This document shows positions 14,998-34,911 of a stretch of DNA of 64,000 nucleotides, piece after piece (position 1 is the stretch's first letter; the number at the start of each line of letters is the position of its first letter). A program made the translations under genes and the position numbers. The notes beneath the pieces were generated by a model, which was not told the origin of the DNA, ran no database searches, and saw only the letters and a program-made list of their open reading frames with translations. Source of the stretch: Mycobacterium sp. DL592 (lineage in GTDB: Bacteria > Actinomycetota > Actinomycetes > Mycobacteriales > Mycobacteriaceae). The DNA is taken from the NCBI RefSeq assembly GCF_011694515.1, contig NZ_CP050192.1:3854172-3918171 (forward strand), written 5' to 3'.

Positions 14998-15047
14998 TGT
15001 TCTTGTCGGAGCCAACTCGGCATTTCGTGGACATACGAGCCAGATAC

Positions 15048-15061: not shown

Positions 15062-15065
15062 TAAT

Positions 15066-17752: not shown

Positions 17753-17782
17753 GCGGTGAGACTGTAGTGGCCGCGACGCCAG

Positions 17783-19447
17783 CTAGCTGTAGTTGAGGAC
17801 GGCTCGGCGCAGCGCGGCCAGGATGCTCTGGTGGTAGGCCGCGTGGTCGCCATCGGGCACCTCGACCAGTTCCGGCGGGGCCGGCGAAGTCCGCAGTCGG
17901 CGCAGCGCCTGCAATCCCTTGTTGGCGACGAACAGCTTGGTGTCATGCGGGCAGAGGATGACGGTGGCCGCCACCCCGCGATCCGCCAGCGCCGACAGCA
18001 CAACGTCGGGAGCCTGAACCACGCCGGTGTGGCCCAGTACGCGCCAGCACTGGGTAGGCAGCATGTTCTGGACCTTCCGGCGCATCCGGGCGCGCGAGGT
18101 CTGCTCCCAGTCGATTTCGTCGTCATCGCCAGGCAGGGTGCGGGCCCGCAGCACCTTCTTGATCCGCCACGACCACAGCAGGGTGTTGACGAACACTACC
18201 GAGTCGGCTCCGAGTTCACGGGCGCCGTAGGCCGCATACCAACTCCCCGAACACACTCCGGCGAACTGGACCCGCGTCGCCCCGCGGCGTGCGTGGGCGG
18301 TGGCGGCCAGCGCGTCCTGCGAGCCCCTGTCGGAGTAGACGTAGACCTCTTCGTCGCGTCCGGGCGGGCTGCTCTCCCCCGCCCCACGACGGTCCCAGCG
18401 CAGCGCGGTGCGACCCGTGGCCGCCACTTCGCGCGCCAGTTCCACCCATTCCCGGTTCGGTCCGTGGTGCGGATTGTTGGCGTTGGTGAAGAACATGACG
18501 ACCGAGTCGGTGGCGCCACTGTCGGGCAGCGTCCGGATGGCGAACATGTCGTGCGGGCTGATCCGCTCGATCTGCTCGATCACGACGCTGTCGCCGACGG
18601 GGATGCGTGCCGAGTCGGTGAACTCCAGAGTGACCGGCGTGCGTTCGTGGCCTACCTGTTGATCGAGCCACTCCGTGGCGGCGTCCACCGCGGCCAACGA
18701 GACGGGCACCAAAAGCCTTGAGGGCTGGGCGCATTGGGGGAACCCGTCGACGAGCACGGCGGTGGTGCGGGCAGATTCGACAAGAGCTCTGACGTTCTTG
18801 TCGTAGCCCTCCGAGCGGGTGATCACCAGCCGGTCGACGCCGCCGGCATCGGATCCGAGTGTGAGCCCACCGAATTCTTTAGCCGCATCGGGCGCCAGCC
18901 GGGCACCGATGGTGGACACCACGCCAGGCGGGACGTCGTCGTTACCGACGGCGATCTTGAAGAATGCGGTCTGCTCGCGCAGGTACCGCTGACCACTGCC
19001 AACGGGATCCCAGTAGACGACCCTGCTGATCGACGGGTGGCGGGCCAGCACACTGTCGAGGATCAGCGCACCTGCGCGCACCGCGACCGCCGAGATGTCG
19101 CTGACACCGGATTCACGCACGTAGTCCACGGCATGGCCGACGCTGGCCTGCCAGTCGCCGACCACGCCGGCACGGGTCTGGTCGAACGACGAGTCGCCGC
19201 TGCCCAGATAGTCGAACCGGAACACCAGCAAGCCGCGGGCTGCGAGTTCGTTGCCCAGCAGACGCAGCCCGCGCAGGGTGTCCGCGTGGTCTTTACCCAA
19301 CGACCCGCACACCAGGACCGCGCCGCGCACCTTCTGGTCGGCGGGCAGATGCGCGACGCCGAACAGGGGCGACTCAGCCGGGCCGAACCACGTCGGGCGC
19401 TCCACGACGTTGAGAATCGTGCGCGCGGACATCAGATCAGACATCAC
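17783..19447 (-). CDS. Tandem double alpha/beta-hydrolase (degenerate plus Cys-nucleophile modules)
   Basis: A 554-residue cytoplasmic-looking protein made of two alpha/beta-hydrolase halves. The first (about 20-265) has the oxyanion segment CGSLGKDHAD and FDYLGSGDS, but its elbow reads AVRAGA (122-127), with Arg where the nucleophile should be. The second (about 285-554) has RWDRRGAGES and an elbow G-V-C-S-G with Cys399 as likely nucleophile, then CPHDTKLF and the terminal DGDHAAY with the catalytic His. The two elbows recall the GLR-GA and GLCDG types seen in hydrolases 2 and 1 associated with exosortase-A polysaccharide clusters, so this looks like a fusion of the two. It follows the carrier-protein ligase by 19 nt and probably releases or transfers a carrier-bound group. 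The last point is inference. Confidence 0.75.
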   Translation of the reverse strand: MMSDLMSARTILNVVERPTWFGPAESPLFGVAHLPADQKVRGAVLVCGSLGKDHADTLRGLRLLGNELAARGLLVFRFDYLGSGDSSFDQTRAGVVGDWQASVGHAVDYVRESGVSDISAVAVRAGALILDSVLARHPSISRVVYWDPVGSGQRYLREQTAFFKIAVGNDDVPPGVVSTIGARLAPDAAKEFGGLTLGSDAGGVDRLVITRSEGYDKNVRALVESARTTAVLVDGFPQCAQPSRLLVPVSLAAVDAATEWLDQQVGHERTPVTLEFTDSARIPVGDSVVIEQIERISPHDMFAIRTLPDSGATDSVVMFFTNANNPHHGPNREWVELAREVAATGRTALRWDRRGAGESSPPGRDEEVYVYSDRGSQDALAATAHARRGATRVQFAGVCSGSWYAAYGARELGADSVVFVNTLLWSWRIKKVLRARTLPGDDDEIDWEQTSRARMRRKVQNMLPTQCWRVLGHTGVVQAPDVVLSALADRGVAATVILCPHDTKLFVANKGLQALRRLRTSPAPPELVEVPDGDHAAYHQSILAALRRAVLNYS

Positions 19448-19466
19448 CGTGTCTCAGTCATCGGCG

Positions 19467-20417
19467 TCACCAGCTCAGCGCCGCCTGCACTGACGGGGGC
19501 CAGGCATCCGGCTGCAGGCCGTGCGTACGCAATAGAGCCAGCGCAATGCGTTCCATTCCGAAGCCGACGCACGCGCTGTGGGCGACGGCGCCGTCGGCGG
19601 TGCGCAGACCGAACGTCTCACCGAAATGGTCGCGGTGGCAGTTGGCCGACACGATCGCGGTTCCGTCATCGAGGTCGCCGTACAGCCGGACGGTCAACTC
19701 GGTCTTGAGCCCCTCGTCGCGCTGGTTGGCGGCGAGCATCTTGCCCACCCGGCCGAAGAACGGGTCATTGGCGGGTACGGCTGCGGCATCGAGGCCGAGT
19801 TCCGCGAGCACCGCCATGCCGTGCCCGACCCAGGCGTCACGATGAGTCTCGGCCTGCTCAGCAGTCCCGACGATCACGAACTCGTGCATCCGGAATGCCT
19901 GCATACGTGCGGGGTCGATGGCCGGCTCGTGCCGAAAGCAGTAGCCGTAAATGTCCATCAGCTGGCCGCCGTCGGGCAGGACCTTCGGCAGCGTCGAGTA
20001 ACTGGGGTGGCAGGCCGCCGGCACGAGCATGGTGCCGGCCGGGTGCAGGTGGCCGTCCCACGGCCGGCCTGCGTCGCGATCGGCCAGCAGAGCCCGGTGG
20101 TCACGGTTGTCGCCGGTGAAGGTCGACACCGCGCCGGTCAGATTCGGAAAGGACGCGATGTAGTCGGTGTTCTCGAAGGCAGCCCGGGTGAACACGGGCG
20201 GGAAACGAAGAACCTTGGCGCGCTCGCCGTGCACCTGGCGGCCCTTGCGCCGGACCGCGACGTCGATCCCGTCGACGATCCGCTCGAAGTCTCCGCCACG
20301 CCCGTACAGGCCGTCGATGCCCATCGGCACCAACAGGCCGGCCTCGACCAACTCGGCGTGGAATTGCTGACGCGCCCGCTGCAACGGGTCGACCAGAACC
20401 TCACTGGTCGAACTCAC
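19467..20417 (-). CDS. Amino acid:[carrier protein] ligase, class II aaRS-like
   Basis: A 316-residue class II aminoacyl-tRNA-synthetase-like protein without a tRNA-binding arm. Motif 2 reads CFRHEPA with the conserved Arg, and motif 3 reads GFGMERIALAL. Cys136, Glu179 and Cys283 are in the places expected for the zinc site of SerRS-like amino acid:carrier-protein ligases such as the Bradyrhizobium Bll0957 type. Those enzymes activate Gly or Ala with ATP and load it on a phosphopantetheinylated carrier protein. A lone carrier protein gene, a phosphopantetheinyl transferase and a DUF1839 gene are all nearby, which supports the assignment. The start is a GTG. The amino acid used cannot be read from the sequence. 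Confidence 0.85.
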   Translation of the reverse strand: MSSTSEVLVDPLQRARQQFHAELVEAGLLVPMGIDGLYGRGGDFERIVDGIDVAVRRKGRQVHGERAKVLRFPPVFTRAAFENTDYIASFPNLTGAVSTFTGDNRDHRALLADRDAGRPWDGHLHPAGTMLVPAACHPSYSTLPKVLPDGGQLMDIYGYCFRHEPAIDPARMQAFRMHEFVIVGTAEQAETHRDAWVGHGMAVLAELGLDAAAVPANDPFFGRVGKMLAANQRDEGLKTELTVRLYGDLDDGTAIVSANCHRDHFGETFGLRTADGAVAHSACVGFGMERIALALLRTHGLQPDAWPPSVQAALSW

Positions 20418-20429
20418 GATCCCCCCTCT

Positions 20430-21635
20430 TCATCCCCGGTGAACGAACGCCAACTGGGCGTTGTTCGCGCGGATCCGGTCGTTGGACACCATCAGCTGAG
20501 GACCGAACGCGTCCCGCAACAGCCGGCTCATGGAGGCCTCGTGGTCCTCACGGTAGCCGTTGATGCCGATCAGTTGCAGCGCTCCGACGACCACATCGAC
20601 AACCGCAGCGGAAGCGCCCAGCTTCAAGTTGTTCATGGCAATGGTAAAACCGACCGTTGGTTCGGTTTGGCCCGACCGCAGAAATTCGTCGTAACGCTGC
20701 ACTTCTCGCATCACCAGCGACTCGAACGTCTGGTGAATGCCGGTCAGGTCGGCCAATTTGGCGGCGCCGGCCCCAATATCGGAACGTCCCGAGCGTGCGC
20801 CTTTGCGGATTACCTGGCGCGCCTTGATCAGCGCCGCGTCGGCGATACCCAGCCAGACCGAAGCCCACAGAGTATGCGAGGAAGGCAACATCGTGTACTC
20901 GGATATCGTCGAATAGTCGACCGGCACAATATTTTTCGACGACGTTCGACTCTTCAGCTGGAACCCGGGACTGCAGGTGCCGCGAAATCCCAGTACGTCC
21001 CAGGTGCTGGTTTTCTCCAGCGTCGTGTCAGGGGCCGGGCACACCAGCAGTACTTGGTCGTTGGCGGGGCTGTCCGGGCCGCGGCGCGCCGTGGTGCAGA
21101 TGTAGTCGGCGTACTCGGCGTAGGAGATCACCGGCGCGTTCTTCTCCAGCGTGACCTCGTCGCCGTCGACGAGCACCGCGCACGTCGAGGACCGCACGTC
21201 ACCGCCGGTGGAGATCTCGGTCGTCGCCGAGGCCAGCAGCGCTTCCCTGGCGGCGATCGTCGCGGTGAGTTGGGCAATCTCCCCGGTGCTGCCGTGGTGG
21301 GCCAGCGTCAGCGCCTGGGTGTGATGCATAGCGAAAACCATCGCCGCCGAACTGCACGCGCCACCGATCGCCCGCGCGGCGCTGGCTAACTCGCCGATGC
21401 GAACCGACCCACCGCCCAGAGCCTCGGGAATCGAACACGAGAGAAGCTTTGCCTCCTTCAGCGACTCCACAGCTTCCGAGGGGAACCGCGCCTTACGGTC
21501 GACATCGTCGGCCGCCGCGGCTGCCGCCTTGATCACGGCTGATAGCTGGGGGGAGGCAGACGTGGCCGGTCCGGGGGCGAGAAGACGGTCTTCCATGGGA
21601 GCTCTCGTGTTAGCTGAGACAGCATCGGCGCGCAT
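20430..21635 (-). CDS. Acyl-CoA-dehydrogenase-like flavoprotein of the carrier-protein module
   Basis: About 401 residues with acyl-CoA dehydrogenase architecture: helical N-terminus (RFPSEAVESLKEAKLL), a central beta-domain (ASATTEISTGGDV, GFRGTCSPGF) and a C-terminal helical bundle (SHTLWASVWLGIADAAL onward). Homologues such as PltE oxidise aminoacyl thioesters on carrier proteins, so a substrate loaded by the adjacent ligase is plausible. It lies 12 nt upstream of the ligase in the same operon and is divergent from the carrier protein gene. The start could instead be 21596 (388 residues). Neither has a strong ribosome-binding site. Parts of 20640-20960 are visibly more A/T-rich than the flanking genes. 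Confidence 0.8.
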   Translation of the reverse strand: MRADAVSANTRAPMEDRLLAPGPATSASPQLSAVIKAAAAAADDVDRKARFPSEAVESLKEAKLLSCSIPEALGGGSVRIGELASAARAIGGACSSAAMVFAMHHTQALTLAHHGSTGEIAQLTATIAAREALLASATTEISTGGDVRSSTCAVLVDGDEVTLEKNAPVISYAEYADYICTTARRGPDSPANDQVLLVCPAPDTTLEKTSTWDVLGFRGTCSPGFQLKSRTSSKNIVPVDYSTISEYTMLPSSHTLWASVWLGIADAALIKARQVIRKGARSGRSDIGAGAAKLADLTGIHQTFESLVMREVQRYDEFLRSGQTEPTVGFTIAMNNLKLGASAAVVDVVVGALQLIGINGYREDHEASMSRLLRDAFGPQLMVSNDRIRANNAQLAFVHRG

Positions 21636-21725
21636 CACTTCTGGACTACGGTACCAGGCAGCTAAGATGTTGCTGAGAATCGCATGGCGAACAATATGGC
21701 CGTGACAATCCCAGGGAGAAGGCGA

Positions 21726-21971
21726 ATGCAGGAGCGGATTCGTGAGGTCCTCGCGGCACATGGCCGCATGCCGGTCGATCCACACAGCATCGACAGCGAC
21801 GCCGACCTCTACAAGCTGGGGTTGACCTCGCACGCGTCGGTGAACGTAATGCTGGCATTGGAAGACGAATTCGATATCGAGTTTCCCGATGAGGCACTGA
21901 AGAAGTCGACGTTCGCATCGGTGACGAACATCGCCCGCGTGGTGGGCAGCCTCGCCGAATCGCCCGTGTGA
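21726..21971 (+). CDS. Stand-alone acyl/aminoacyl carrier protein
   Basis: An 81-residue carrier protein. DLYKLGLTSHASVNVML is the phosphopantetheine-attachment helix, with Ser35 in LTSHA in place of the usual DSL. The next helix (LALEDEFDIEFPDEAL) is acidic as in ACPs. The start at 21726 has a strong GGGAGAAGG ribosome-binding site, while two earlier in-frame ATGs lack one. Its stop overlaps the DUF1839 GTG by 4 nt. The adjacent ligase should load it and the AcpS-type transferase in the same operon should activate it. Confidence 0.88.
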   Translation: MQERIREVLAAHGRMPVDPHSIDSDADLYKLGLTSHASVNVMLALEDEFDIEFPDEALKKSTFASVTNIARVVGSLAESPV

Positions 21972-22918
21972 GCCTCGCAGTTTGCGCTGAGCCTGAAACT
22001 CACCGGCCACACTTCACGCATTCCCCCGAACGAATCTGGCCGGAGACGAATTGTTACTTCGATCTCTGGATCGAATTGCTGCATGCGCTCGGGCTGGACC
22101 CGGTGCCTTCTTTTGCCAGCGCGCTCTCGGCCGATCACGACGGGATGCACTGGTCGTTCCTCAAACCGCTGCCGGAAGACCTTCGTCGTCTCTACGGTCT
22201 CGAGGTAACCGAGGAGAACGTCTGGATGCCGGTTCTGGAGACCGTGGAGTCCGGTCCGCCGCGCGGGGTGCTGCACACCGTCGAGGTGGACAGCTGGTGG
22301 CTGCCTGACACCGCCGGCACCAGCTACCGAACCGAGCATGTCAAGACCACGATCGTGCCCACCCGGGTCGACCGGGACCGCAAGCTGATGTGGTACCTGC
22401 ACAACGCCGGCCTCTACGAGTTGCGCAACGATGACTTCGACGGAGTGTTCGGCGAGACCGACCCATCCGCGACGGTGCTGCTGCCCTACATCGAGGCGAT
22501 CCGCCGTTTCCCGGACCGCCGCGAGGATGACGCGCTGCTCCGGATCACCACCGAGCATCTGTCCCGGCGCCCGGACGGCAACCCGGTCGAGCGCCTGGCT
22601 GACGGACTCGGCCGGGCCGCCGAGTGGCTGCCCAGTGCCGGCATGCCGCGGTTTCATCGCTGGGCGTTCGCCAACCTGCGGCAGTGCGGTGCCACGGCTG
22701 AGCTGGCCGCGGACTTCGCCGTCCACCTCGACGGTGTCCGCCCGGGAACCGCGCACGCCGAGGGCCACTTCCGCGCTGTCGCATCCGGTGCCAAGTCGGT
22801 GCAGTTCAAGATGGCGCGCTTGGCCAACGGCCGGTCCGTCGACGTGGGGGCAGGCCTGGCCGAGATGGCGCGCGACTGGCAGACCGCCATGGACTCCCTT
22901 GCGGCCGCGGTGGGTTGA
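21968..22918 (+). CDS. DUF1839 family protein
   Basis: A 316-residue protein that I assign to DUF1839. The N-terminal NCYFDLWIELLHALGLDPV and DGMHWSFLKP segments, EVDSWWLPDTAGTSYR and the Tyr-Leu-His pattern YLHNAGLYEL look like a compact enzyme domain with conserved His, Trp and Asp residues. As far as I recall, members are found next to amino acid:carrier-protein ligases in proteobacteria. An aminoacyl transfer role is possible but unproven. The GTG start overlaps the carrier-protein stop by 4 nt, and its stop overlaps the start of the GH2-like gene. Confidence 0.75.
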   Translation: MSLAVCAEPETHRPHFTHSPERIWPETNCYFDLWIELLHALGLDPVPSFASALSADHDGMHWSFLKPLPEDLRRLYGLEVTEENVWMPVLETVESGPPRGVLHTVEVDSWWLPDTAGTSYRTEHVKTTIVPTRVDRDRKLMWYLHNAGLYELRNDDFDGVFGETDPSATVLLPYIEAIRRFPDRREDDALLRITTEHLSRRPDGNPVERLADGLGRAAEWLPSAGMPRFHRWAFANLRQCGATAELAADFAVHLDGVRPGTAHAEGHFRAVASGAKSVQFKMARLANGRSVDVGAGLAEMARDWQTAMDSLAAAVG

Positions 22919-25308
22919 CGGTGCTGGATCGCTGGCAGGTCGTCCGCACCCGGGCGGGCGAATTCGGCAAACCGGAGGAGCTGGCCGAACTGTGGCCGGA
23001 CGGGCTCGAACTCGACGGTGCCGCGCCGGTCGCCACCCTGGCCCCGGTTGACGACGACCATGACTGGTGGCATCGCGCGACACTGCTGGCCGACGAGCCG
23101 GTGGTCGTGGAGTTCGCCGGGTTGAGCTTTCCGGCAACGGTTTTCGTCGACGGGCAGCAGGCCGCTCAGTGCGTGTCGATGTTCCTGCCGGTGCGGGTTC
23201 CCGTCGGGCCCGGTGCGCACGACATCGCGGTGTGCTTCCACGCTCTCAACGGGTGGCTGACCACTCGGCGGCCGCGTGGGCGCTGGCGATCGAGCCTCGT
23301 CGGTCCGCCCGGCCTGCGCTGGGCTCGCACGACCCTGCTGGGCCGCGCCCCGGTCTACGGCGACGTACCGGTCCCGATCGGCTTCTGGCGTCCGGTGACC
23401 GTCACTGCCCAGCGGGCGGTGCTCGACATCGTCGTCACCCCCGATCCCGACAGCGGGATCGTTGAAGTCACCGGCAGTGCGCCGGGCGGGGAGCTGGCCT
23501 ACACGATCGAGGGGCCCGATGGCCTCGTGGTCACCGACGGCCGTGCCCCCGTCACCAATTGCGTATTCACCATCCGGGAACAGATCACGGCGCCCGAGCT
23601 GTGGTGGCCCCGCGGCTACGGCCCGCAGCCGCTGTACCGCCTGCGGCTGAGCCTCGACGGCCACCAGATCGCGCCGCGCACGTTCGGCTTCCGCTCGCTG
23701 AGCGCCCTCGAGACCGACGGCGGCTTCGGGTTGCGCGTCAACGGTGTCGACGTGTTCTGTCGCGGCGCGACCTGGTTCCCACCTGATCCGGTGGCCCTGA
23801 CCGTGGACGACGCGACGCTGCGCGGCCAGGTCAGCGCCCTCGCCGACGCCGGGGCGAACATGATCCGCATCGTCGGTGGGCTGGTCCCCGAGCAGCCGGA
23901 GTTCTTCGAGATCTGCGCCGAACTCGGCGTGCTGGTGTGGCAGGACGCCATGCTGGCCACCTTCGATCCGCCAGCCGAGCTGACCGGGGTGATCGTCGAG
24001 GAGGTCACCACCATCCTTCGGGCCGCCGCCGGAAACCCGGCCCTGGCCGTCGTCAGCGGCGGCAGCGAGACCCTGCAGCGACCGGAGATGCTCGGACTCG
24101 ACGCCGGCGCCCGCGCGATCGACCTGATCGACGTGGCCCTTCCCGAGGCCGTCGCGCAGACGGCGGCGGTTGCCTACGTGTGCTCGAGTCCGGCGCCGCC
24201 CCCAGGTGGCGACGACCTCGCGATCCGGCCGGACACCGGTGTCGCGCACTGGTTCGGAGTGGGCGGGTATCTGCGGCCGCTGTCCGATGTGCGCACCGCG
24301 GGGGTCCGCTTCGCCGCCGAGTGCCTGGCATTCGCCAATCCGCCGTCGGCCGCGGCCGTCGAACGGCACTTCGGGTCGGCTGCCGTCGCCGGCCACGACC
24401 CACGTTGGAAAGCCGGCGTGCCGCGCGACCGCGGCGCGTCATGGGATTTCGAGGACGTCCGCGACTTCTACGTCCGCGAGGTCTTCGGCGAGGACCCTGC
24501 CGCGGTCCGGCGAGTCGACCCGGAGCGTTATCTGGAGCTCGGCCGACTGGCCGTCGCCGAGGCCATGCTGCGGTGCTTCGGCTTCTGGCGGCGCGCCGAG
24601 TCGGGTTGCCGGGGTGCGCTGGTGCTCGCCGGCAAGGACGCCCGTCCCGGTGCCGGGTGGGGATTACTCGATGTCGACGGCGCGCCGAAAGCGGCGCTGC
24701 AGGCGTTGCGCCGGGTCTGGGCTGCCCAGTCGGTGGTGCTCTCCGACGAGGGGTTGTCCGGTATCCGCGTCGACGTCCACAACGACACCGCGACCGCAGC
24801 GGGCGGTGAACTGATCCTGGCCGCCACCGATGCCACCGGACAGCTCGTCGCCGAGGCGCACCGGGACATCGAGGTGCCTGCGCACTCGTCGCTGACATTC
24901 GTCGACTCGCAGCTGTCGGGGGTGTTCCGCGACCTGTCGCACGCTTTCCGGTTCGGACCGCCCACCGCAGACGCGGTCGAAGCCGTGGTGCGACTGGGCG
25001 AGCCTGCGCGGGTGCTGCGCGACGCGCTCGTCGTCCACCCACGCGGCACGCAGGTCCACACCGGTCTTCGCGCGGTCGCCGAGCACGTCGACGGATCCTG
25101 GGAACTGGAGATCAGCGCGGGCGTCGCGCTGCGCTACGTCTCGATCGACGCCCCCGGCTGGCGAACGTCGGACAACTACTTCCACCTGGCTGCCGGCCGG
25201 CCCTATCGGGTGCGACTCACCGCCGACACCGAGCCCAGCGCGCAGCCGGGCGGCGCGGTCGGTTCACCTGACTCCCACGCGCGCGCCGTCATCGAGGTTC
25301 CGCAGTGA
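22915..25308 (+). CDS. Glycoside hydrolase family 2-like (beta-mannosidase-type) protein
   Basis: A 797-residue protein with the GH2 layout: N-terminal jelly-roll (WWHRATLL, VFVDGQQAAQC), immunoglobulin-like domain (APELWWPRGYGPQPLYRL), a TIM-barrel (NGVDVFCRGATWFPPD, NMIRIVGG) and C-terminal beta domains. The acid/base GNNE motif is GGSE here (Glu385), and the likely nucleophile is Glu469 in RFAAECLAF. Both glutamates are kept although surrounding residues are divergent. There is no signal peptide, so it should act in the cytoplasm, perhaps on a glycan precursor. The start may be the TTG at 22915 (TTGA overlap with the previous stop) or GTG at 22921. Its stop overlaps the transferase gene. 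Confidence 0.75.
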   Translation: MTVLDRWQVVRTRAGEFGKPEELAELWPDGLELDGAAPVATLAPVDDDHDWWHRATLLADEPVVVEFAGLSFPATVFVDGQQAAQCVSMFLPVRVPVGPGAHDIAVCFHALNGWLTTRRPRGRWRSSLVGPPGLRWARTTLLGRAPVYGDVPVPIGFWRPVTVTAQRAVLDIVVTPDPDSGIVEVTGSAPGGELAYTIEGPDGLVVTDGRAPVTNCVFTIREQITAPELWWPRGYGPQPLYRLRLSLDGHQIAPRTFGFRSLSALETDGGFGLRVNGVDVFCRGATWFPPDPVALTVDDATLRGQVSALADAGANMIRIVGGLVPEQPEFFEICAELGVLVWQDAMLATFDPPAELTGVIVEEVTTILRAAAGNPALAVVSGGSETLQRPEMLGLDAGARAIDLIDVALPEAVAQTAAVAYVCSSPAPPPGGDDLAIRPDTGVAHWFGVGGYLRPLSDVRTAGVRFAAECLAFANPPSAAAVERHFGSAAVAGHDPRWKAGVPRDRGASWDFEDVRDFYVREVFGEDPAAVRRVDPERYLELGRLAVAEAMLRCFGFWRRAESGCRGALVLAGKDARPGAGWGLLDVDGAPKAALQALRRVWAAQSVVLSDEGLSGIRVDVHNDTATAAGGELILAATDATGQLVAEAHRDIEVPAHSSLTFVDSQLSGVFRDLSHAFRFGPPTADAVEAVVRLGEPARVLRDALVVHPRGTQVHTGLRAVAEHVDGSWELEISAGVALRYVSIDAPGWRTSDNYFHLAAGRPYRVRLTADTEPSAQPGGAVGSPDSHARAVIEVPQ

Positions 25309-25679
25309 TCGAGGGGATCCGGGTCGGCTGTGACGTAGTGGCCGTCAACGAGGTCGCCGAGTCGATGGCGACATTCGGCGATCGTTACCTGCAAAGGGTG
25401 TTCACCCCGGCCGAACTCGACGACTGCGCCGGATCGGCCGAACGGCTCGCCGCACGATTCGCCGCCAAGGAAGCCGTCATCAAGGTTTTCGCCGAACCGG
25501 ACGCGCATTTCCCGCTGCAGGAGATCGAGGTGCGCAGCACCGGATCGGCGCCGACGCTGCATTTGACCGGGGCAACCGCCGAGCGCGCCCGGGCACAGGG
25601 ATGGGGCCAGACTGAGGTCTCGCTGTCGCACGCAGAGTGCCACGCGATGGCCGTTGTGGTCGTGGCCTGCCAGAAATGA
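25305..25679 (+). CDS. AcpS-type 4'-phosphopantetheinyl transferase
   Basis: A 124-residue AcpS-like enzyme that would move phosphopantetheine from CoA to the carrier-protein serine. GCDVVAV near the N-terminus has the Mg-binding Asp10, and ARFAAKEAVIK has Glu56 and Lys. The C-terminal VSLSHAECHAMAVVV is the third signature. Mycobacteria already carry a housekeeping AcpS and PptT, so this copy looks dedicated to the local carrier protein. The GTG overlaps the GH2 stop by 4 nt, making it the last gene of the operon that begins with the carrier protein. Confidence 0.85.
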   Translation: MIEGIRVGCDVVAVNEVAESMATFGDRYLQRVFTPAELDDCAGSAERLAARFAAKEAVIKVFAEPDAHFPLQEIEVRSTGSAPTLHLTGATAERARAQGWGQTEVSLSHAECHAMAVVVVACQK

Positions 25680-25745
25680 CGCAGGCCGCGGTGGCCATTA
25701 TGCTTACCAGCAAGTTAACGACAGGCCACCCGGCAAATTTTGAGT

Positions 25746-25773
25746 GCAAGTATCGCGAAGTGATAACGCTTGC
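25746..25773. promoter_or_regulatory. Nested palindrome upstream of the Wzz-like gene
   Basis: GCAAG at 25746-25750 pairs with CTTGC at 25769-25773, and inside them TATC pairs with GATA around a 7-nt centre. The element lies in the 237-bp gap between the transferase gene and the Wzz-like gene, where the DNA is A/T-richer than its surroundings. It could be a regulator site for the polysaccharide operon or a leader hairpin. No promoter elements were assigned with confidence in this gap. Confidence 0.35.
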
Positions 25774-25916
25774 GACACAGGGTTGTTTCGTGTGCATGTG
25801 GCGTCGCGCGTCGACCGCCGGCTGGGCGACAGTTATTCTGGAGCAAAACTCGGGTAGTTCGCCGCGCCGAGTGGCTCCGCATACGACGAGCCTGACGAGA
25901 CATCTTTGGAGTGGCA

Positions 25917-27494: not shown

Positions 27495-28348
27495 GCGCTC
27501 CGGCCATCTCCCTGGTCTGTAGCACAGTCGGGCGGCCGGAAGCGCTCAAGCACCAACTGGACGCGCTGACCGCGGGGGAAATGGCCGAGCAGGTCGAGTT
27601 CGTGCTCATTGACCAGAGCGATGACCAACTCTGTGCCCAGCTGCTTCGCGACTACGACCCGCCCGGACCGTGGCACGTCACCACCAGCGGACGGGGCCTC
27701 TCAGTGGGACGTAACGTCGGCCTCGCGCTGGCCACCGCGCCGATCGTCGCCTTCCCCGATGACAACTGCTGGTACGGATCGGATACCGTCCGCAGGGTGC
27801 TCTCCGTGTTCGCAGAACGTCCCGACCTCCAGGGGCTGTCGGCCAAGCAGGTCGACGCCGACGGGTCGCCGTCGATGCTGCGCTGGCTGGATCACGAGGT
27901 CGAGATCAGCCGGACTAACTTCATGCGGACCTCGATCAGCAGCACTTTGTTCCTTCGCCGCGACGCCCTGCCGTCTGTGGCCCCGTTCGACGAAGGCATC
28001 GGTGCAGGCTCGCCCGGCTGGCGTGGAGCGGGCGAAGAATCGGATCTGATACTTCGCATGTTGGCTGCCGGGTCGAAGCTGCTGTACCGGCCCGATATCG
28101 TCGTCTACTCGGCCGATGACCGGGCAGAACCTGACGAGGACTACGTGGACAAGATGTTGCGCTACGGTGTCGGCCTCGGACACCTGTGGCGCAAGCATCG
28201 ACTGCCCGCGAGCCTGCTGGTCTATTACTCCGCCCGCAAGGTGGTGGGTACCGCTGTGCGCGCGGCGCGCGGCGACCGCATTCGCTCCCGGGCCGACCGC
28301 GCCTATCTGCGCGGCACGCTCGCCGGCTGGCGGGGCAGAAACCCGTGA
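27491..28348 (+). CDS. Family 2 glycosyltransferase
   Basis: A 285-residue GT-A fold glycosyltransferase. SLVCSTVGRPEAL opens the nucleotide-binding domain, SVGRNVGL and the metal-binding region FPDDNCWY (PDD as the DxD-like element) follow, and GAGEESDLILRML carries the acceptor-side ED motif. No membrane helix is present, so it probably acts on a lipid-linked precursor at the inner face of the membrane. Donor sugar is unknown. It overlaps both the Wzz-like gene and the flippase gene by 4 nt, placing it firmly in the polysaccharide operon. Confidence 0.87.
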   Translation: MSAPAISLVCSTVGRPEALKHQLDALTAGEMAEQVEFVLIDQSDDQLCAQLLRDYDPPGPWHVTTSGRGLSVGRNVGLALATAPIVAFPDDNCWYGSDTVRRVLSVFAERPDLQGLSAKQVDADGSPSMLRWLDHEVEISRTNFMRTSISSTLFLRRDALPSVAPFDEGIGAGSPGWRGAGEESDLILRMLAAGSKLLYRPDIVVYSADDRAEPDEDYVDKMLRYGVGLGHLWRKHRLPASLLVYYSARKVVGTAVRAARGDRIRSRADRAYLRGTLAGWRGRNP

Positions 28349-29688
28349 CCCAGGGCCATGAGGCGACCGCCGAGCTCAAGCGCAGCTTTTCCTGGCGGGT
28401 AGTGGCCGCGGCTGCGGGGATGATCGCCACGTTCCTGCTCACGGTCATCGTGGTGCGCACACTCGACGACAAGGACGCGGCGGGATTCTTCGCGATCCTG
28501 GCCGCACTGTCCATCGGACCGCTGGTCGGGCGGCTGGGATTGGGCCCCAACGTGGTTCGGCTGATTCCAGCCGAACCGGACCACGACAAGCGCCGCATCA
28601 TCGCCGGCACCCACCTTCGCGCGACAGCGCTGCTGACTTTGCCGTCGGCGCCCGTGGTGGCGTTCTTTGCGACCGCTGGCCTGGTCGGTCACGGTGACTT
28701 CATCCCCGCGTTCTTCCTCACCACCGCGATCATCATGATCGAGACACTGCGACTGATGCTCAGCGACATCTTCGCTGCGTACGGGCGGGTGCCTGCCTCG
28801 GTGGCGACCATGCACTACATCCGCAGCACGATGGTGCTGCCCGTGGTCGGTGTGGTGGCGTTCGCCTTGGAGCGCCCGACCCTGACGGTACTTCTGTCGG
28901 CCTATGTGGCGGTTGCGGCCGTGCAGTTCCTCGTCGCCCTGGCATTCGCGCGGCGCGACGTCGCGATCTCGAAGTCGGTTGGCATTGCGTCACTGCGCGC
29001 CGCAATCGGTAACGGAACCCGGCTGTTCAGCCTGGAGTTGTCGTCGTTCCTGATGATGTCGGGCACCATCTGGCTGGCAAATATGGCGTTCTCACCCGTC
29101 ACCGCCACCCACTACTCGGCGGCGGCCACCATCGCCATGCAGGTCACCATCCTGGAAAGCCTTGCCGCCCTTGCTGTTACACCACCCGCAGCACGATTGT
29201 GGGCGGACAGCAAGAAGGAGCACGTGGTGCGACTGTTGTCGAACGTCGCCACAGTCAACACCGCCGTCACGATCTGCCTGGTTATCGCGCTCGGCCTGTT
29301 CGGCGGGATTGCGCTGCAGACGGCGTACGGTCCGTCGATGCGCGATGCGGCCACGCTGCTGGTGATCCTCGCCGCCAGCGGCATCGTGCAGGCGGCGCTG
29401 AACGTCAACATCTCGCTGCTCATCATCGGCGGCTTCATCAACGAGGTCAGCCGCACCGCGGTGATCGTGCTGGCGATCGTGCTGCCCTGCGCCATCGTCG
29501 CGGCCATCGTTGGCGGACCGCTGCCGTTGGCGATCGTGTCCTCGTGCGGAGTGGCCCTGCTGTCGGTCGCCGAATGGCTCACCGCGCGACGCGTGCTGGA
29601 TCAAGCCCCGCATGCACACCGTCATCTCATCGCGGCCGCCCGCGAACTGCTGGAGCGCCCGCCCGGTTCGGTGGCGCTCGGCACGTGA
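28345..29688 (+). CDS. Wzx-type polysaccharide flippase (MOP superfamily)
   Basis: A 447-residue membrane protein with about 12 hydrophobic segments, beginning with the cytoplasmic SFSWRVVAAAAGMI and FLLTVIVVRTLDDKDAAGFFAIL segment typical of Wzx/RfbX-like exporters. It would flip lipid-linked oligosaccharide units across the membrane. The GTG at 28345 overlaps the GT2 stop by 4 nt. An earlier in-frame start inside the GT2 gene gives a non-homologous-looking N-terminus and is rejected. Its stop overlaps the Wzy start. Confidence 0.82.
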   Translation: MTQGHEATAELKRSFSWRVVAAAAGMIATFLLTVIVVRTLDDKDAAGFFAILAALSIGPLVGRLGLGPNVVRLIPAEPDHDKRRIIAGTHLRATALLTLPSAPVVAFFATAGLVGHGDFIPAFFLTTAIIMIETLRLMLSDIFAAYGRVPASVATMHYIRSTMVLPVVGVVAFALERPTLTVLLSAYVAVAAVQFLVALAFARRDVAISKSVGIASLRAAIGNGTRLFSLELSSFLMMSGTIWLANMAFSPVTATHYSAAATIAMQVTILESLAALAVTPPAARLWADSKKEHVVRLLSNVATVNTAVTICLVIALGLFGGIALQTAYGPSMRDAATLLVILAASGIVQAALNVNISLLIIGGFINEVSRTAVIVLAIVLPCAIVAAIVGGPLPLAIVSSCGVALLSVAEWLTARRVLDQAPHAHRHLIAAARELLERPPGSVALGT

Positions 29689-31031
29689 GCAAGCACGCCG
29701 CGCCCACCACCAGTCCGCAGGTCTGGTTCCTCTCGCCGATCGCGGTGACCCTGGTGGTCGCGATGGTTTCGATGCTGCCCACAGCGCTGATCGGAGACGC
29801 CGCATTCCGGGAGTTGTGGCGCACACCGAAATCGATCACGCCCGAGACACTGCTGCTGTTCGCGTGCGGCGCTCTGGCGCTGTCGTTCGGTGCCTTGGTC
29901 TCGATGGCCTCGGTACAACAGCGTCCGCTGACCGTGCGGTGGCCGGCCCTCGATGCAAAATCGCTGGACCTCATGCAGCGAGCCAGCACAGTACTCACCG
30001 GCTTGACGGTGTTCGGCTACGCCGGCTTCGGCTTCTTGATCCTGCGTTCGGGGTTGTCGTTGAGCCAACTCGTCGCCGGACCCTACGCGGACGGCCCGCC
30101 AGTACGCGACACCATCGGAACCGTTCCGGGTGTCACCACATTGACCCAGTGCGGTATGGCCGCGGTCATCGTCTCCTCGATCCTGCTGACCCAGCATTTC
30201 TCGCGTGGCGAGCTGCTGAAAATCCTTACCGTGGTGGGCCTTTCGCTGCCACGGTCGTTCCTGTTCTCGGAGCGGCTGGCCGTCCTCGAAGTGGTCGTGC
30301 CCGTGGTGGTGATCCTGTGTGCGTGGCTGTCGTTGAGTCCCGGCCCTCGCCGCACGGCATCGGCACTGGCCCCGGTGATCGGCCTGCCGCTGGTGATCGT
30401 GATTTTTGGTGTCTTCGAGTACTTCCGGTCGTGGTCCTACTTTCGGACCAGGACCAACAGCAGCTTCGTCGAGTTCACCCTGGAGCGCCTGGCCGGTTAC
30501 TACACCACGGCACTGAACAACGGCCATCTGGTCTATACGTATCTGAACTGGCCGGGCCGCTGGCCCTACGACACGTTGGAGGCGTTCTGGGTGGCGCCCG
30601 GCATCGAGCAGTTCGGCCTGTACACCCGCCTGACCGGTCACGAGCTGCCTTACTCCGGCAAGTCCCAAGCGGTCACCCCGCTGACCGAAGTGCTCACCCA
30701 GCACGGCAATCCGGAATTCAACAACCCGTCGGGATACGTTGCGCCGTTCATCGACTACGGCTCGGTCGGCGGACTGGTCTTCCTGTTCGTGATCGGCTTG
30801 TTGTCGGGGTTCCTCTACCGCGGATTCTGCGGCGGCAAGCCGTTCGGCCTCCTGCTCTACCCGATCATGTTCACCGGTCTGCTCGAACTGCCGCGGTACA
30901 TGTACTGGTCACAGGGGCGCACCACCTACACCTTGTTGGCGTTGATCATCCTCGCCGTGATGTTGAGCCGGAGACAAGCGAAATCGACTGCGCCGCAGAT
31001 CTATCCGACACTGAGCGGCTTACCGTCCTGA
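29685..31031 (+). CDS. Wzy-like polysaccharide polymerase
   Basis: A 448-residue protein with about 11 transmembrane segments. A large extracytoplasmic loop (about 260-365) contains FRSWSYFRTRTNSSFVEF, YYTTALNNGHLVY and GNPEFNNPSGY, a layout typical of O-antigen/EPS polymerases. Wzy proteins share little sequence, so the call rests on topology and on its place directly after the Wzx gene (4-nt overlap) and below the Wzz-like gene. Its last 31 nt overlap the convergent beta-helix lipoprotein gene. Confidence 0.78.
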   Translation: MSKHAAPTTSPQVWFLSPIAVTLVVAMVSMLPTALIGDAAFRELWRTPKSITPETLLLFACGALALSFGALVSMASVQQRPLTVRWPALDAKSLDLMQRASTVLTGLTVFGYAGFGFLILRSGLSLSQLVAGPYADGPPVRDTIGTVPGVTTLTQCGMAAVIVSSILLTQHFSRGELLKILTVVGLSLPRSFLFSERLAVLEVVVPVVVILCAWLSLSPGPRRTASALAPVIGLPLVIVIFGVFEYFRSWSYFRTRTNSSFVEFTLERLAGYYTTALNNGHLVYTYLNWPGRWPYDTLEAFWVAPGIEQFGLYTRLTGHELPYSGKSQAVTPLTEVLTQHGNPEFNNPSGYVAPFIDYGSVGGLVFLFVIGLLSGFLYRGFCGGKPFGLLLYPIMFTGLLELPRYMYWSQGRTTYTLLALIILAVMLSRRQAKSTAPQIYPTLSGLPS

Positions 31032-32101
31032 GTCCAGTCCGTCGTCGCGAACGTGCCGGCCGGCGCATTGGTGACGAACGGTGTCACCGCTGACCCGTCC
31101 AGCCGGAGGCCGCTGAATTCGATACCGGCGACCGTGCCGTGATCGACGATCAGCCCGACATCACGCTGGGCGGATTCCGGGGTTCCGGTGACGGACAGCC
31201 GGGACAAACGAACGTTGGTCAGCGATACGTCGTCGCGGCCACCGTAAACCAAGATGGCGCCGTTGACGGTGCTGGAGTCGTGGTTGGCGGCGGTCACCGT
31301 GCCGTCGGCGATGCTGACGTCGCTAACCGACCCGGTGTTGTAGGGGTCGCCCTCGGTGGCCACGTAGATGCCCGCGGCCGCGGTGTCGTTGACGCTGATG
31401 TTGCGCGCGCTGATGTGTTCGCCGCCTACGACGGCCAGCCCGCGCCCGTTGGTGGTGCCGTTGACGACAGGCCCGGTGATGGTGATGTGCTGGCAGGGCG
31501 GCTCACTGCCGTAGGAGACCACCGCCACCCCGTCGTCGCCGGTACCTGCCGTGGAGATGCGGGTCAGGGTGCCGTCGGTGGCTCCACCGGTGACGTGCAC
31601 GCCGTCGGCACGGGTATTGGCCACCCGGATGTCGGACAGCTTGAAATTGTGCGCGCCCTGGACGAAGACGCCTGCAGCGGCGGACCCGTTGACGGTGATG
31701 TCGTCGAGCGTGACGCCCTGGGTGCCCAGGACGGCGAGCTTCTGCTGATTGGGCGCGCCCCAGCGTTTGCCCTCGGTTGGTGCGGTCAGAGTGAGGTTCC
31801 GGACGGTCACGTTGTCGGCGACCACCTGCACCGAGGACGTTTCGTCGTTGAGGGCCTGCAGAGTGGCGCCGTGGCCGTCGATGGTGACACCGGGCACGCT
31901 GATCTTGAGGACACCGCCGTGGCCGTACGTGCGCTGGTCCAGCGTCAGCGTCTGGCCCGGCTGCAGGCCGTCGAACCGTTGCTGCAGCGTCGCGGTCTCG
32001 TCAGCCAGCGGCGCGGACTGGGCGGGCGCAGCGGTGCTCTGACAGCCCACGAGCAGACCGCAGGCGGCCAGGAATGCGAGGCCGGTTCTGGAGATGCTCA
32101 T
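31001..32101 (-). CDS. Lipoprotein with parallel beta-helix, possible polysaccharide-acting enzyme
   Basis: A 366-residue lipoprotein. A signal peptide ends in the lipobox LVGC (Cys20). From about 55 to 330 the sequence consists of repeated short strands (for example VTIDGHGATL, VTVRNLTLT, GVFVQGAHNFKLSDI) that form a right-handed parallel beta-helix. NTRADGV (Asp166), GDDGVAV (Asp189-Asp190) and NGRGLAV lie where GH28 pectinases have NTD, DD and GHG, so a hydrolase, lyase or epimerase acting on the exported polymer is plausible. The His of GHG is replaced by Arg220. It is transcribed 4-nt-overlapping after the GT4 gene. Confidence 0.75.
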   Translation of the reverse strand: MSISRTGLAFLAACGLLVGCQSTAAPAQSAPLADETATLQQRFDGLQPGQTLTLDQRTYGHGGVLKISVPGVTIDGHGATLQALNDETSSVQVVADNVTVRNLTLTAPTEGKRWGAPNQQKLAVLGTQGVTLDDITVNGSAAAGVFVQGAHNFKLSDIRVANTRADGVHVTGGATDGTLTRISTAGTGDDGVAVVSYGSEPPCQHITITGPVVNGTTNGRGLAVVGGEHISARNISVNDTAAAGIYVATEGDPYNTGSVSDVSIADGTVTAANHDSSTVNGAILVYGGRDDVSLTNVRLSRLSVTGTPESAQRDVGLIVDHGTVAGIEFSGLRLDGSAVTPFVTNAPAGTFATTDWTQDGKPLSVG

Positions 32102-33147
32102 CCCGCCATGCTACGAATCGCCGCCAAAACGCTGTCCGCGGACGTGACCCAGGAGTAGCGGGAGGCGTTGCGGTGGCCGAGGTCGACGAGCTTGTCCGCT
32201 GCCGAATGGTCACCATCGAGGACATCGGCGTGGCGCAGCAGGGCTGAAGGCTGCTGCGGGTCGAAGTACAGCGCGCCGTCCCCGCCGACTTCGGGTATCG
32301 AGGCCCGGTCGGAGGCGATCACCGGGCAACCCAGGGTCTGCGCTTCGAGCAGTGGCAGGCCGAAACCCTCGTAGAACGACGGGAAGACCAACGCGGTGGC
32401 GTGCTCGTAAAGCCAGCGCAGTTCGGCATCGGTCAAGCGCTGGGCGACCACGACATTGTCGGCGAGGTCGGCGGCGATGCCGGCGTACACCCGGCTGTCA
32501 CCGCCGGCACCGACGACCACCACATGGCGCCCCGAAGCGGCGAGGGCCGCGGCCGGGGCTACCACGTTCTTGTGCCGGGCCAGCGTGCCGACCAGAAGGT
32601 AGGTGCCCGGATGCCAGGGCAGATCGGGCTGGCGGGCGGGCACCCTGGTCAGCGAGTCGGCCGCGCACCCCACCACCAGGAATCGCGACGGCTTGACCCG
32701 AAGCACCTCGGCCAGCTCCCCCTTGCTGAACTCCGAGACCGTCATCAGCCGGCGGGCGGTGCGGGCCAGTAGCAGGTAAGCGAGCAGATAGAAGGCGACG
32801 AAGGCTTTGCGGTAGGTCTCCGGGAAGCGGAACGGGGTGGCGTCGTGGAACGTCACGAATTGGCGGGTCTTGAGCAGCGGCGCCATGCCACCGAAGTTGA
32901 GCAGCAGGCGTCCCGCGGTGGCGATCGGCAGGTAGAGCTGCTCAAACGCCATCCCCGCCAGCGGGGCGCGCCGCACGGTGATGTTCGGCGCGATGGCCCA
33001 GGACGGAATCCGGGCACCTTTGGGGACATGCAACACGAAGTCGATGCCGTGGTCGGCTACAACGTGGCGGGCCAACTCCTCGGAATAGCGCTGTACGCCG
33101 GTGAAAGGTTGCCCCAGCCACTTGCCGTTGATGTGTGCCGAGGGCAT
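32098..33147 (-). CDS. Family 4 glycosyltransferase
   Basis: A 349-residue GT-B fold enzyme of the GT4 type. INGKWLGQPFTGVQRYSEEL is the N-terminal acceptor-side signature, GTLARHKN opens the donor domain, and FPSFYEGFGLPLLEAQ gives the E-x7-E retaining-enzyme motif. No membrane helix is seen. It is close to mannosyl/rhamnosyl transferases of polysaccharide loci. Donor and acceptor are unknown. It is the first gene of a two-gene operon with the beta-helix lipoprotein and is divergent from the next GT4 gene. Confidence 0.87.
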   Translation of the reverse strand: MPSAHINGKWLGQPFTGVQRYSEELARHVVADHGIDFVLHVPKGARIPSWAIAPNITVRRAPLAGMAFEQLYLPIATAGRLLLNFGGMAPLLKTRQFVTFHDATPFRFPETYRKAFVAFYLLAYLLLARTARRLMTVSEFSKGELAEVLRVKPSRFLVVGCAADSLTRVPARQPDLPWHPGTYLLVGTLARHKNVVAPAAALAASGRHVVVVGAGGDSRVYAGIAADLADNVVVAQRLTDAELRWLYEHATALVFPSFYEGFGLPLLEAQTLGCPVIASDRASIPEVGGDGALYFDPQQPSALLRHADVLDGDHSAADKLVDLGHRNASRYSWVTSADSVLAAIRSMAG

Positions 33148-33197
33148 TGCGCCATCCTAGCGAGCAACGATGGTTCCGGGCAGGCTAGGCTTAGCCG

Positions 33198-34310
33198 GTG
33201 AACAGCGCACCGACGATCGCGATCGTCCATGAGCGCCTGACAGAGTTTGCCGGTTCCGAGCAGGTGGTCGAACAGCTCGCCGCCGAATGGCCGTCGGCGC
33301 GAATCCACGTGCCGATCGCCGCCCCGGGTTCCGACCGTGGCGCGATGCAGGGCCGCGCCGCGGTCACCCCGGCCGATCGGGTGCACCGGCTCATCGGCCG
33401 CCGATCCCACGCCGTGCTTTTACCCTCGTTCATACCGGCCTTCAAGCACATGGACTTCGGTGACGTCGACGCCGTCGTCATCAGTCACCATTCCGCCGCC
33501 CTGTCCGCCGTCCACGCCACCACTGACCGGCCGACGGTGGCCTATGTGCATTCGCCGGCCCGCTGGGCGTGGGACCCCGCGATGCGTGAGGGTGAGGCAT
33601 CGGGGTTCGCTGGGCGCACCGCGTTGACCGGATTAGCCGCCCTTATCCGCCGTGCAGAGGCACAGGCGGCACCGAAGCTCACCCAGATTGTGGCGAACTC
33701 GTCCGAAGTTGCGGCGCGGATCCGCCGATGGTGGGGGCGCGACGCCGCCGTCGTACATCCGCCCGTCAACACCGACCTGTTCACCCCCGACGACACCGGC
33801 GAGCGCGAGGACTTCTTCTTACTCGCCGGTCGGCTGGTGCCTTACAAGCGGCCAGATCTGGCCATCGCCGCAGCGAATGCCGCCGGGGTTCCGCTGGTGG
33901 TCGCCGGGGAGGGACGCAGGCTGGCGGAATGCCAGGCCGTCGCCGGACCGAAGACCATATTCCTGGGCCGGGTGTCCGACGAGGAGATGCTGAGACTGCA
34001 ACGGCGGGCCCGCGCACTGCTGATGCCTGGCATCGAGGACTTCGGCATCGTGCCGGTGGAGTCGATGGCGTGCGGCACGCCGGTGATCGCGACCGGAGCC
34101 GGCGGAGCCTTGGACTCGGTGGTGCCGGGCCTGAGCGGCCAGTTGGTCGAGCCGGGAACCGATCGTCAGATCGTCGCCGGTTTCACCGAAGCGCTGCGCA
34201 CGTTCGATGGCACCCAGTTCGACAGCAAGCAGGTGCGCAAACATGCTGAGCAGTTCTCGCACGCCCGGTTCCGCGAGCAGATGCGCGCGGTGGTCGACTC
34301 AGTGCTGTGA
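33198..34310 (+). CDS. Family 4 glycosyltransferase (WbaZ/WbdA-like)
   Basis: A 370-residue GT-B enzyme. IVHERLTEFAGSEQVVEQL is the N-terminal glycine-loop region of the GT4 mannosyltransferase group, AYVHSPARWAWDP and NSSEVAARI are family signatures, and IEDFGIVPVESMACGTPV contains the E-x7-E motif. It probably adds a hexose such as mannose to the repeat unit. The GTG at 33198 is 50 bp from the divergent GT4 gene, so both may share a regulatory region. Its stop is 3 nt from the convergent DUF218 gene end. Confidence 0.86.
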   Translation: MNSAPTIAIVHERLTEFAGSEQVVEQLAAEWPSARIHVPIAAPGSDRGAMQGRAAVTPADRVHRLIGRRSHAVLLPSFIPAFKHMDFGDVDAVVISHHSAALSAVHATTDRPTVAYVHSPARWAWDPAMREGEASGFAGRTALTGLAALIRRAEAQAAPKLTQIVANSSEVAARIRRWWGRDAAVVHPPVNTDLFTPDDTGEREDFFLLAGRLVPYKRPDLAIAAANAAGVPLVVAGEGRRLAECQAVAGPKTIFLGRVSDEEMLRLQRRARALLMPGIEDFGIVPVESMACGTPVIATGAGGALDSVVPGLSGQLVEPGTDRQIVAGFTEALRTFDGTQFDSKQVRKHAEQFSHARFREQMRAVVDSVL

Positions 34311-34313
34311 TTT

Positions 34314-34868
34314 TCAGCACCCCACCAGCAGGGCCTTGCCCAAGGCGAAGTACTGGTAGGTGTAGGTCACGACCCAGCGCGGCAGCGAGTAGTCGTAGGT
34401 CCTCGGCACCGGCGCCATCGTGACCGTTCCGCCGAAGCACTGGTCGAAGATGTAGCGGGCCCGGACCATGTGGAAGTTCCACGACACCACGATCACGTGA
34501 GTCCAGTTGCGTTCCTTGGCAAGTCGCGCCGTGAACATCGCCTCACCGCGAGTGGTGTACGGGTCCGGGCGAAAGCACACGACCGTGATCGTCGCGGTGC
34601 CCGACGCGCAGGCCTGGGCGAACTCCGCGCTGGCTTGCGGGTCGTTCTCGTAGGAGTTGGACAGCACGACGGTGCTTGCGTAACCCTGCTTCGCCAGGCT
34701 CAGCCCGTACTGCAGGCGGCCGTCGTTCTCGCCGCCGAGGACGACGATCGCGTCGGCCTTGACCAGCGGATCGGCATGCGACCGGGTGAACAGGAAGTAC
34801 CCGGCGATGCCGGGCGCGATGACGAGAGCCACCGCTACCACAGCCAACACGCGACGCAGTCTGGCCAC
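34314..34868 (-). CDS. DUF218 / YdcF-SanA-type membrane-anchored protein
   Basis: A 184-residue protein with one N-terminal transmembrane helix (about 5-28) and a DUF218 domain. KADAIVVLGGENDGR, VVLSNSYENDP, PDPYTTRGEAMFTARLA and IVVSWNFHMVRARYIF are the domain's conserved blocks, including T-R-G-E and S-x-x-H-M-x-R. Relatives (SanA, ElyC, YdcF) are linked to envelope or lipid-carrier metabolism. Acting on an undecaprenyl-type carrier would fit the neighbouring polysaccharide genes but is inferred. It is the last gene before the conserved Rv3311 homologue. Confidence 0.85.
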   Translation of the reverse strand: MARLRRVLAVVAVALVIAPGIAGYFLFTRSHADPLVKADAIVVLGGENDGRLQYGLSLAKQGYASTVVLSNSYENDPQASAEFAQACASGTATITVVCFRPDPYTTRGEAMFTARLAKERNWTHVIVVSWNFHMVRARYIFDQCFGGTVTMAPVPRTYDYSLPRWVVTYTYQYFALGKALLVGC

Positions 34869-34911
34869 GGGGGCAGGTTACCGGTCAGGGAGCGTCGTTA
34901 GGCTGTGCGGC

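Follow-up and report, generated by a model that had tools for sequence, protein, structure and literature searches.

A fourteen-gene island in Mycobacterium sp. DL592 that combines a predicted aminoacyl-transfer module with a Wzx/Wzy-type polysaccharide cassette

What would a homologue of class II aminoacyl-tRNA synthetases (aaRS) that charges a carrier protein be doing beside a gene cluster for polysaccharide assembly and export? The question is raised by a locus in Mycobacterium sp. DL592, whose genome (here G000) consists of one contig of 5.10 Mb (NZ_CP050192.1, here C1); the stretch analysed, referred to below as the window, is the 64,000 nucleotides of C1:3854172-3918171. Between upp (17129-17752 of the window), which flanks the locus, and the homologue of Rv3311 lie 15 frames that the initial annotation had read as one joint system, in which aminoacyl-thioester chemistry serves to decorate an exported polymer. 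All 15 are indeed present as described, free of internal stops and with GC content at third codon positions (GC3) of 0.77-0.90, and the Rv3311 homologue matches NCBIfam SatS at 731 bits (cut-off 700). The reading developed here, to which we would give roughly even weight, is that fourteen of these genes form an island made up of an autonomous aminoacyl-transfer module and a Wzx/Wzy-type cassette, and that the module links an amino acid through an amide bond, likely to the amine of a repeat-unit sugar.

The protein on which this reading turns is encoded at 21968-22918 (+) and has 316 residues; the initial annotation, which put names to 14 of the 15 genes, had left it unnamed. It belongs to family DUF1839 (PF08893, 343 bits; cut-off 22.5), and its structural model has the fold of a CcbD/BtrH-like aminoacyl transferase along its whole length. 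As CcbD joins an amino acid delivered by a carrier protein to an amino sugar, the protein is predicted to be a CcbD-like aminoacyl-carrier:amine N-acyltransferase, and its fold lends support to the earlier suggestion of thioester chemistry aimed at a glycan. Cys29 and His124 are each retained in 155/157 sequences (117 of 120 listed homologues, selected at 280-360 residues and including the window protein once more, together with the window protein itself and 39 from the loci); in the model itself, Cys29 stands at the start of helix 29-40 and His124 just ahead of strand 126-135. When PDB sequences were searched with a DUF1839 profile the only match was a weak one, to EspG5 (E 0.5-0.6).

What such a transferase would need is encoded alongside it. 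The amino acid:[carrier protein] ligase at 19467-20417 (-; NF005479, 428.2 bits; cut-off 357) aligns over residues 28-313 with Bll0957 in the PDB (E 1e-68), and its C136, E179 and C283, all at least 95% conserved in 60 sequences, correspond to C131, E176 and C279 of that protein (20-residue tag subtracted), which we take to be zinc ligands. The acyl carrier protein at 21684-21971 (+; NF005480, 101 bits; cut-off 72) has in its GLTS motif a Ser49 that is at least 95% conserved in 55 sequences, and an AcpS-type phosphopantetheinyl transferase is found at 25305-25679 (+; PF01648, 48.5 bits; cut-off 25). In the scheme proposed, AcpS would arm the carrier and the ligase would load an amino acid onto it as a thioester; the flavoprotein described below might then oxidise the bound aminoacyl group, after which DUF1839 would take that group onto Cys29 and hand it to an amine to form an amide. 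The acceptor would here most likely be the amino group of a repeat-unit sugar, the unit then being built, flipped and polymerised by the three glycosyltransferases, Wzx, Wzy and the Wzc-type co-polymerase. We infer the order of these steps, and likewise which acceptor, amino acid and polymer are involved and what GH2 and the double hydrolase do.

The flavoprotein lies at 20430-21635 (-; start at 21635 or 21596) and has the acyl-CoA-dehydrogenase fold (Pfam Acyl-CoA_dh_N/M/1, with Acyl-CoA_dh_N at 40.2 bits; cut-off 22.9). In acyl-CoA dehydrogenases the catalytic residue is the Glu of a C-terminal YEG(T) motif; at this position 70/70 sequences of the flavoprotein have Val (68) or Ile (2), and on the absence of the Glu ordinary acyl-CoA dehydrogenase chemistry was rejected. 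Dehydrogenases score best among its PDB matches, which also include nitrososynthases (4zxv, DnmZ; 3mxl) and DszC. Taken together, the missing Glu and the nitrososynthase matches tentatively make oxidation of the bound group by a monooxygenase-type enzyme more likely than ordinary desaturation. The GH2 beta-mannosidase-like enzyme at 22915-25308 (+), assigned by Pfam and by a PDB beta-mannosidase (E 8.5e-27) in agreement with its earlier label, has at E385 and E469 what are presumably both catalytic glutamates, these being aligned with Glu residues of PDB beta-mannosidases and at least 95% conserved in 47 sequences. Finally, the double alpha/beta hydrolase at 17783-19447 (-) keeps in its second half a G-x-C-x-G motif (Cys399) and His535, while in the first half no nucleophile motif was seen (both from conservation in 45 sequences); thioesterase or additional acyltransferase activity is conceivable for it. 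It resembles the exosortase A-associated hydrolases, and membership of those families is ruled out by its scores (TIGR03100, 54.5 vs 168.45 bits; TIGR03101, 66.1 vs 202.75 bits).

That the block is a real inserted island is shown by its empty site. In the sister genome G009 (L143), blastn matches window positions 14048-17769 and 34317-36167 to sequences only 17 bp apart, which sets the limits of the insert at approximately 17770-34316 and its content at fourteen genes. The fifteenth gene, encoding a DUF218 (YdcF-like) protein at 34314-34868 (-; PF02698, above cut-off), had been counted as part of the system, and here the earlier claim fails: the gene stands on the satS side of the empty site in G009, G136 being similar, with 65-68% identity in the two genomes, so that it is resident and is ruled out as a gene of the block. 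Comparison of the upp-satS interval across the genus, as the initial annotation had proposed, gave 635-642 bp in eight genomes and 29-31 bp in six others. Much longer intervals, of 20.4 and 9.1 kb respectively, are found in G114 and G077 (L146-L148), and nothing in them matches the block genes; the site is therefore variable and seems to take different insertions. Similar blocks adjoin upp in G098, in Mycobacterium sp. M26 (L002) and in a groundwater metagenome-assembled genome (MAG; L005), as far as these stretches reach.

As to whether the two halves belong together, an association is seen within the genus. In a genus sample of 148 genomes a ligase match at E ≤ 0.001 was obtained in 15, and the counts below use the 7 clear loci (71-100% identity, including the window's own); the remaining matches were 3 at 27-34% identity (L120-L122), around which tblastn found no other block gene, and 5 in which the match spans no more than 62 residues and includes an in-frame stop. 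All seven clear loci have a polymerase-type gene within the 20 kb analysed, which is TIGR04370-type in 3 and Wzy_C-type (here meaning likeness to L009:925-2781, which matches the O-antigen ligase family PF04932) in 4. Within the family, DUF1839 occurs in 47/201 genomes (12/31 genera), and at 20 DUF1839 loci the ligase was within the same 20 kb in 18. Glycosyltransferase or Wz genes were present at 16/20 of these loci vs 3/20 control stretches from the same genomes, whose positions were set by hand on the contigs that carry the loci (Fisher p 8.8e-5). The genes were detected with iterated profiles of our own that started from proteins of the window and the loci, rather than with Pfam. By class, the counts were 5 vs 0 for Wzx, 5 vs 0 for the initiating transferase, 2 vs 0 for Wzy and 0 vs 0 for Wzz. 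In a phylum sample of 396 genomes DUF1839 was found in 3, all with a ligase match, and a ligase match in 10, of which 4 were above cut-off.

The module itself varies in content. Subtypes were counted in the 66 of 80 named ligase loci that are 20 kb or longer: 42 have flavoprotein, DUF1839 and GH2, 17 flavoprotein only, 1 flavoprotein and DUF1839, and 6 none of the three. The 17 may partly reflect flank length, since in the Rhodococcus loci L038 and L041 a distance of 5-9 kb separates the ligase from DUF1839 and GH2. A minimal variant, made up of ligase, carrier and double hydrolase and in most cases AcpS (none matched in L012 and L078), was seen near glycan genes and without DUF1839, flavoprotein or GH2 in L007, L009, L011, L012, L015, L078, L110-L112, L114 and L182; on a Tsukamurella plasmid, too, the minimal module sits amid polysaccharide genes. 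Two ligase loci, L017 (labelled Acidobacteriaceae MAG) and L018 (labelled Kitasatospora arboriphila), resemble those of Mycobacteriales, the layout of L018 being that of Williamsia muralis L019, and are possibly mislabelled or contaminant contigs.

There are a number of results that weigh against the proposed scheme, and these are best considered together. As regards the transferase, the Foldseek matches at E ≤ 0.001 were AziU3 and CtaG only, CcbD having come from a second look with VIA, and the lists from both leave room for unlisted families; likeness of a modelled fold to CcbD would, taken alone, establish no function. The third catalytic residue is Glu in CcbD and, going by variant names, presumably Asp144 in CtaG; candidates for a DUF1839 counterpart are Asn146 (148/157), Asp135 (153/157) and His145 (157/157). 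As regards the acceptor, family profile scans of the 14 insert genes found no initiating sugar-phosphate transferase, and the genome has no good match to a DegT sugar aminotransferase (best 33 bits, partial), so that the proposed acceptor remains a candidate only. Within the genus, DUF1839 is present at only 3 of the 7 ligase loci (the window, L113 and L115); the other four (L110, L111, L112 and L114) are of the minimal variant, so that DUF1839 cannot be the transferase everywhere. Conversely, of the 7 genus genomes that carry this Wzy, 4 (L116-L119) gave no match to the ligase. Among the 80 named ligase loci (80 of 91 relatives kept; flanks ≤ 10 kb) our profiles find a glycan gene of some kind in 59, with Wzx in only 10 and Wzy in only 9. 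In 11 annotated proteobacterial plasmid regions, moreover, glycan export lies mostly away from the module.

These plasmid regions deserve a closer description. They come from a hand-chosen set (15 of 87 ligase-match records, 3 of the proteobacterial ones being without annotation) for which the PLSDB gene tables are incomplete. The order carrier-flavoprotein-ligase-DUF1839 is constant in all 11, followed by GH2 in 10 and with a hydrolase adjoining in 6. An O-antigen-ligase/GumC pair lies within 14 kb in 1/11 (Shinella), a GT9 gene together with a sulfotransferase gene is nearby in 1/11, as are ArnT- and lipoteichoic acid (LTA)-synthase-like genes in 1/11. On a Rhizobium gallicum plasmid (L186) five of the module genes are flanked by nif genes and by a gene for 1-aminocyclopropane-1-carboxylate (ACC) deaminase, and their immediate neighbour is annotated as an exopolysaccharide production repressor. 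Since the module can thus stand apart from glycan export, and since four of the seven Wzy genomes lack the ligase, we conclude that two modules are combined here and that there is no single obligate system: the aminoacyl module is autonomous, and has been combined with glycan genes in many Mycobacteriales. The earlier claim of one joint system accordingly survives in part, in the 7/7 genus loci and the 16/20 vs 3/20 enrichment, but not as a fixed unit; it had been said that a single system would be unlikely if the halves rarely occurred together or the Wzx/Wzy half had other neighbours, and the four Wzy genomes, together with the plasmid regions, are in part a case of this.

How, then, might the locus otherwise be understood? 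It could be that the module makes a small soluble metabolite, for instance an aminoacylated sugar or amine, perhaps N-oxidised, in the manner of CcbD; GH2 and the hydrolase would then trim the product, and the polysaccharide genes would be no more than co-residents of a variable island. We think this unlikely, though by no means negligible. It would sit well with the 11 proteobacterial regions, where the module is mostly apart from glycan export and in some cases beside nif or plasmid replication and transfer genes, with the place of CcbD, a close solved relative of the fold, in an antibiotic pathway (AziU3 and CtaG likewise belong to such pathways), and with a hydropathy scan that found no hydrophobic segment in GH2. 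It is less easily squared with the family enrichment of glycan genes and the polymerase-type gene near every clear genus ligase locus, and family profile scans of the 14 insert genes gave no match to non-ribosomal peptide synthetase (NRPS) or small-molecule exporter families. If instead the target belongs to the envelope, it need not be the polymer: the module may aminoacylate another component (a glycolipid, another glycan or a protein), leaving the Wzy product undecorated. Cassettes of the same kind in L116-L119 without a ligase match imply that the polymer does not need the module, and the five initiating transferases elsewhere in the genome, given below, suggest other glycans; however, the ligase recurs with polymerases of different types, which fits decoration of whichever polymer is encoded alongside, and we regard the other-target account as improbable.

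That the island is a decaying or silent insertion with no working product seems to us very improbable indeed. The upp-satS interval does vary between genomes of the genus (roughly 30 bp to 20 kb in the examples found), but all 14 insert frames are open with GC3 of 0.77-0.87, and five adjacent pairs overlap by 4 bp (carrier/DUF1839, DUF1839/GH2, GH2/AcpS, Wzc-like/GT2 and beta-helix/GT4a); similar blocks also stand beside upp in G098, L002 and L005. (Starts were those of a longest-frame caller, and the longest frames of the flavoprotein and Wzy extend too far upstream.) Decoration of the polymer encoded in the same island remains the reading we prefer. In its wider form, which we put forward tentatively and with rather less than even confidence, mycobacteria and their relatives would carry out a tRNA-free amino-acid decoration of exported polysaccharide, unrelated to Dlt, in which a class II aaRS homologue, a carrier, a flavoprotein and DUF1839 act on an amino sugar of the Wzy repeat unit. 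If this were true, such decoration would be a biological role of the amino acid:carrier-protein ligases, and a decorated Wzx/Wzy polymer would be placed in mycobacteria.

Several known systems invite comparison. In D-alanylation by Dlt, a carrier-bound amino acid is likewise bound for an envelope glycan, as is predicted for the insert; the difference is that the insert has a predicted soluble, CcbD-like amide-forming transferase, and profile scans of its 14 genes found no DltB-like match. The lincosamide condensing enzymes CcbD and LmbD share only 15% identity with DUF1839, and their partner is an NRPS-type adenylation enzyme, whereas that of DUF1839 is a class II aaRS homologue. Exosortase A/exopolysaccharide (EPS) loci encode hydrolases 2 and 1, to which the double hydrolase is similar, though far below the family cut-offs; the same scans found no exosortase. 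A gene neighbourhood of these ligases was reportedly described by Mocibob in 2010. Iyer et al. (2010; PMC2922099) described ligase neighbourhoods with a carrier, a redox enzyme predicted to monooxygenate, a conserved uncharacterised protein (e.g. Atu2574), a glycosidase and liposaccharide genes, the same set as in the insert, and predicted that the uncharacterised protein ligates the amino acid by an amide bond to a surface sugar. The joint idea was therefore already predicted in 2010, and no demonstration of it was found. That account has neither a Wzx/Wzy cassette nor a transferase fold; the additions made here are the structural link between DUF1839 and CcbD, the conservation of DUF1839 residues, the occurrence in a mycobacterial Wzx/Wzy island for which an empty site is found, and distribution data for and against a joint system. 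The role of the ligases is given as unknown in the accessible part of a 2022 review (PMC9437257), and a CcbD-fold match, by placing a type of carrier-dependent enzyme that acylates amino sugars in the ligase operon, makes that question testable cheaply in vitro. Titles and abstract openings yielded no description of a mycobacterial Wzx/Wzy system, and literature listings no paper on the aminoacyl module in mycobacteria; no paper was found that joins any two of DUF1839, Atu2573 and bll0957, or that treats both carrier-protein ligases and polysaccharide, and the accessible part of the lipocone paper (PMC12419801) mentions neither acyl carrier protein nor DUF1839.

The cassette has the likeness of a Wzx/Wzy pathway in possessing a Wzy, a flippase-like protein, a Wzc-type co-polymerase and glycosyltransferases, and differs in that the initiating transferase lies outside the insert and the co-polymerase is without the Walker A Lys. 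Most of its earlier labels were borne out, Wzy, GT2, both GT4 enzymes and the beta-helix protein scoring above curated cut-offs, as do the ligase, carrier, AcpS and DUF218. Wzy, an oligosaccharide repeat unit polymerase (29679-31031, +, starting a few codons in; TIGR04370, 56.9 bits; cut-off 40), has no Pfam match at E ≤ 0.01. The labels Wzz and Wzx hold in part. The supposed Wzz-like protein (25911-27494, +) has no Pfam match, but its model, of middling quality (pLDDT 71, pTM 0.40), matches Wzc and Wzz structures and is Wzc-like over both parts, including a kinase-like domain; full-length superposition is loose (root-mean-square deviation 7-9 over 330-370 residues), and at the Walker A site, GASAQSGT in the window, Lys is missing in 7/7 rows. 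The Wzx-like flippase (28345-29688, +; start candidate GTG 28345) reaches only 16.7 bits against NF041503 (cut-off 300), has no Pfam match in 7/7 sequences and gives a weak hhalign result against a PF01943-positive Wzx set (P 0.18), but has about 11 transmembrane segments and homologues named for O-antigen/teichoic acid export, 2/90 of them with PF01943; searches of PDB sequences with Wzx and Wzz profiles gave no useful match.

The remaining genes encode the GT2 glycosyltransferase (27491-28348, +; PF00535, 29.2 bits), GT4 glycosyltransferases a (32098-33147, -; PF00534, 65.5 bits) and b (33198-34310, +; PF00534, 80.9 bits), and the beta-helix lipoprotein (31001-32101, -; PF13229, 30.5 bits), in whose translation a lipobox-like LLVGC can be read. 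A 4-amino-dideoxy sugar from a DegT/WecE enzyme was rejected as acceptor for lack of a good DegT match in the genome, which leaves other amino sugars as candidates. Elsewhere in the genome there are five PF02397 initiating transferases (G000:C1:3166893, 3816994, 4199860, 4224744 and 4410495), which suggests further glycan loci in the host; one of the five is about 54 kb from the block. Beyond the SatS gene, at 36186-39443, the window encodes a 1085-residue protein that appears by eye to be MmpL/RND-like; G009, with its empty site, has this DNA as well (blastn, 36445-39456).

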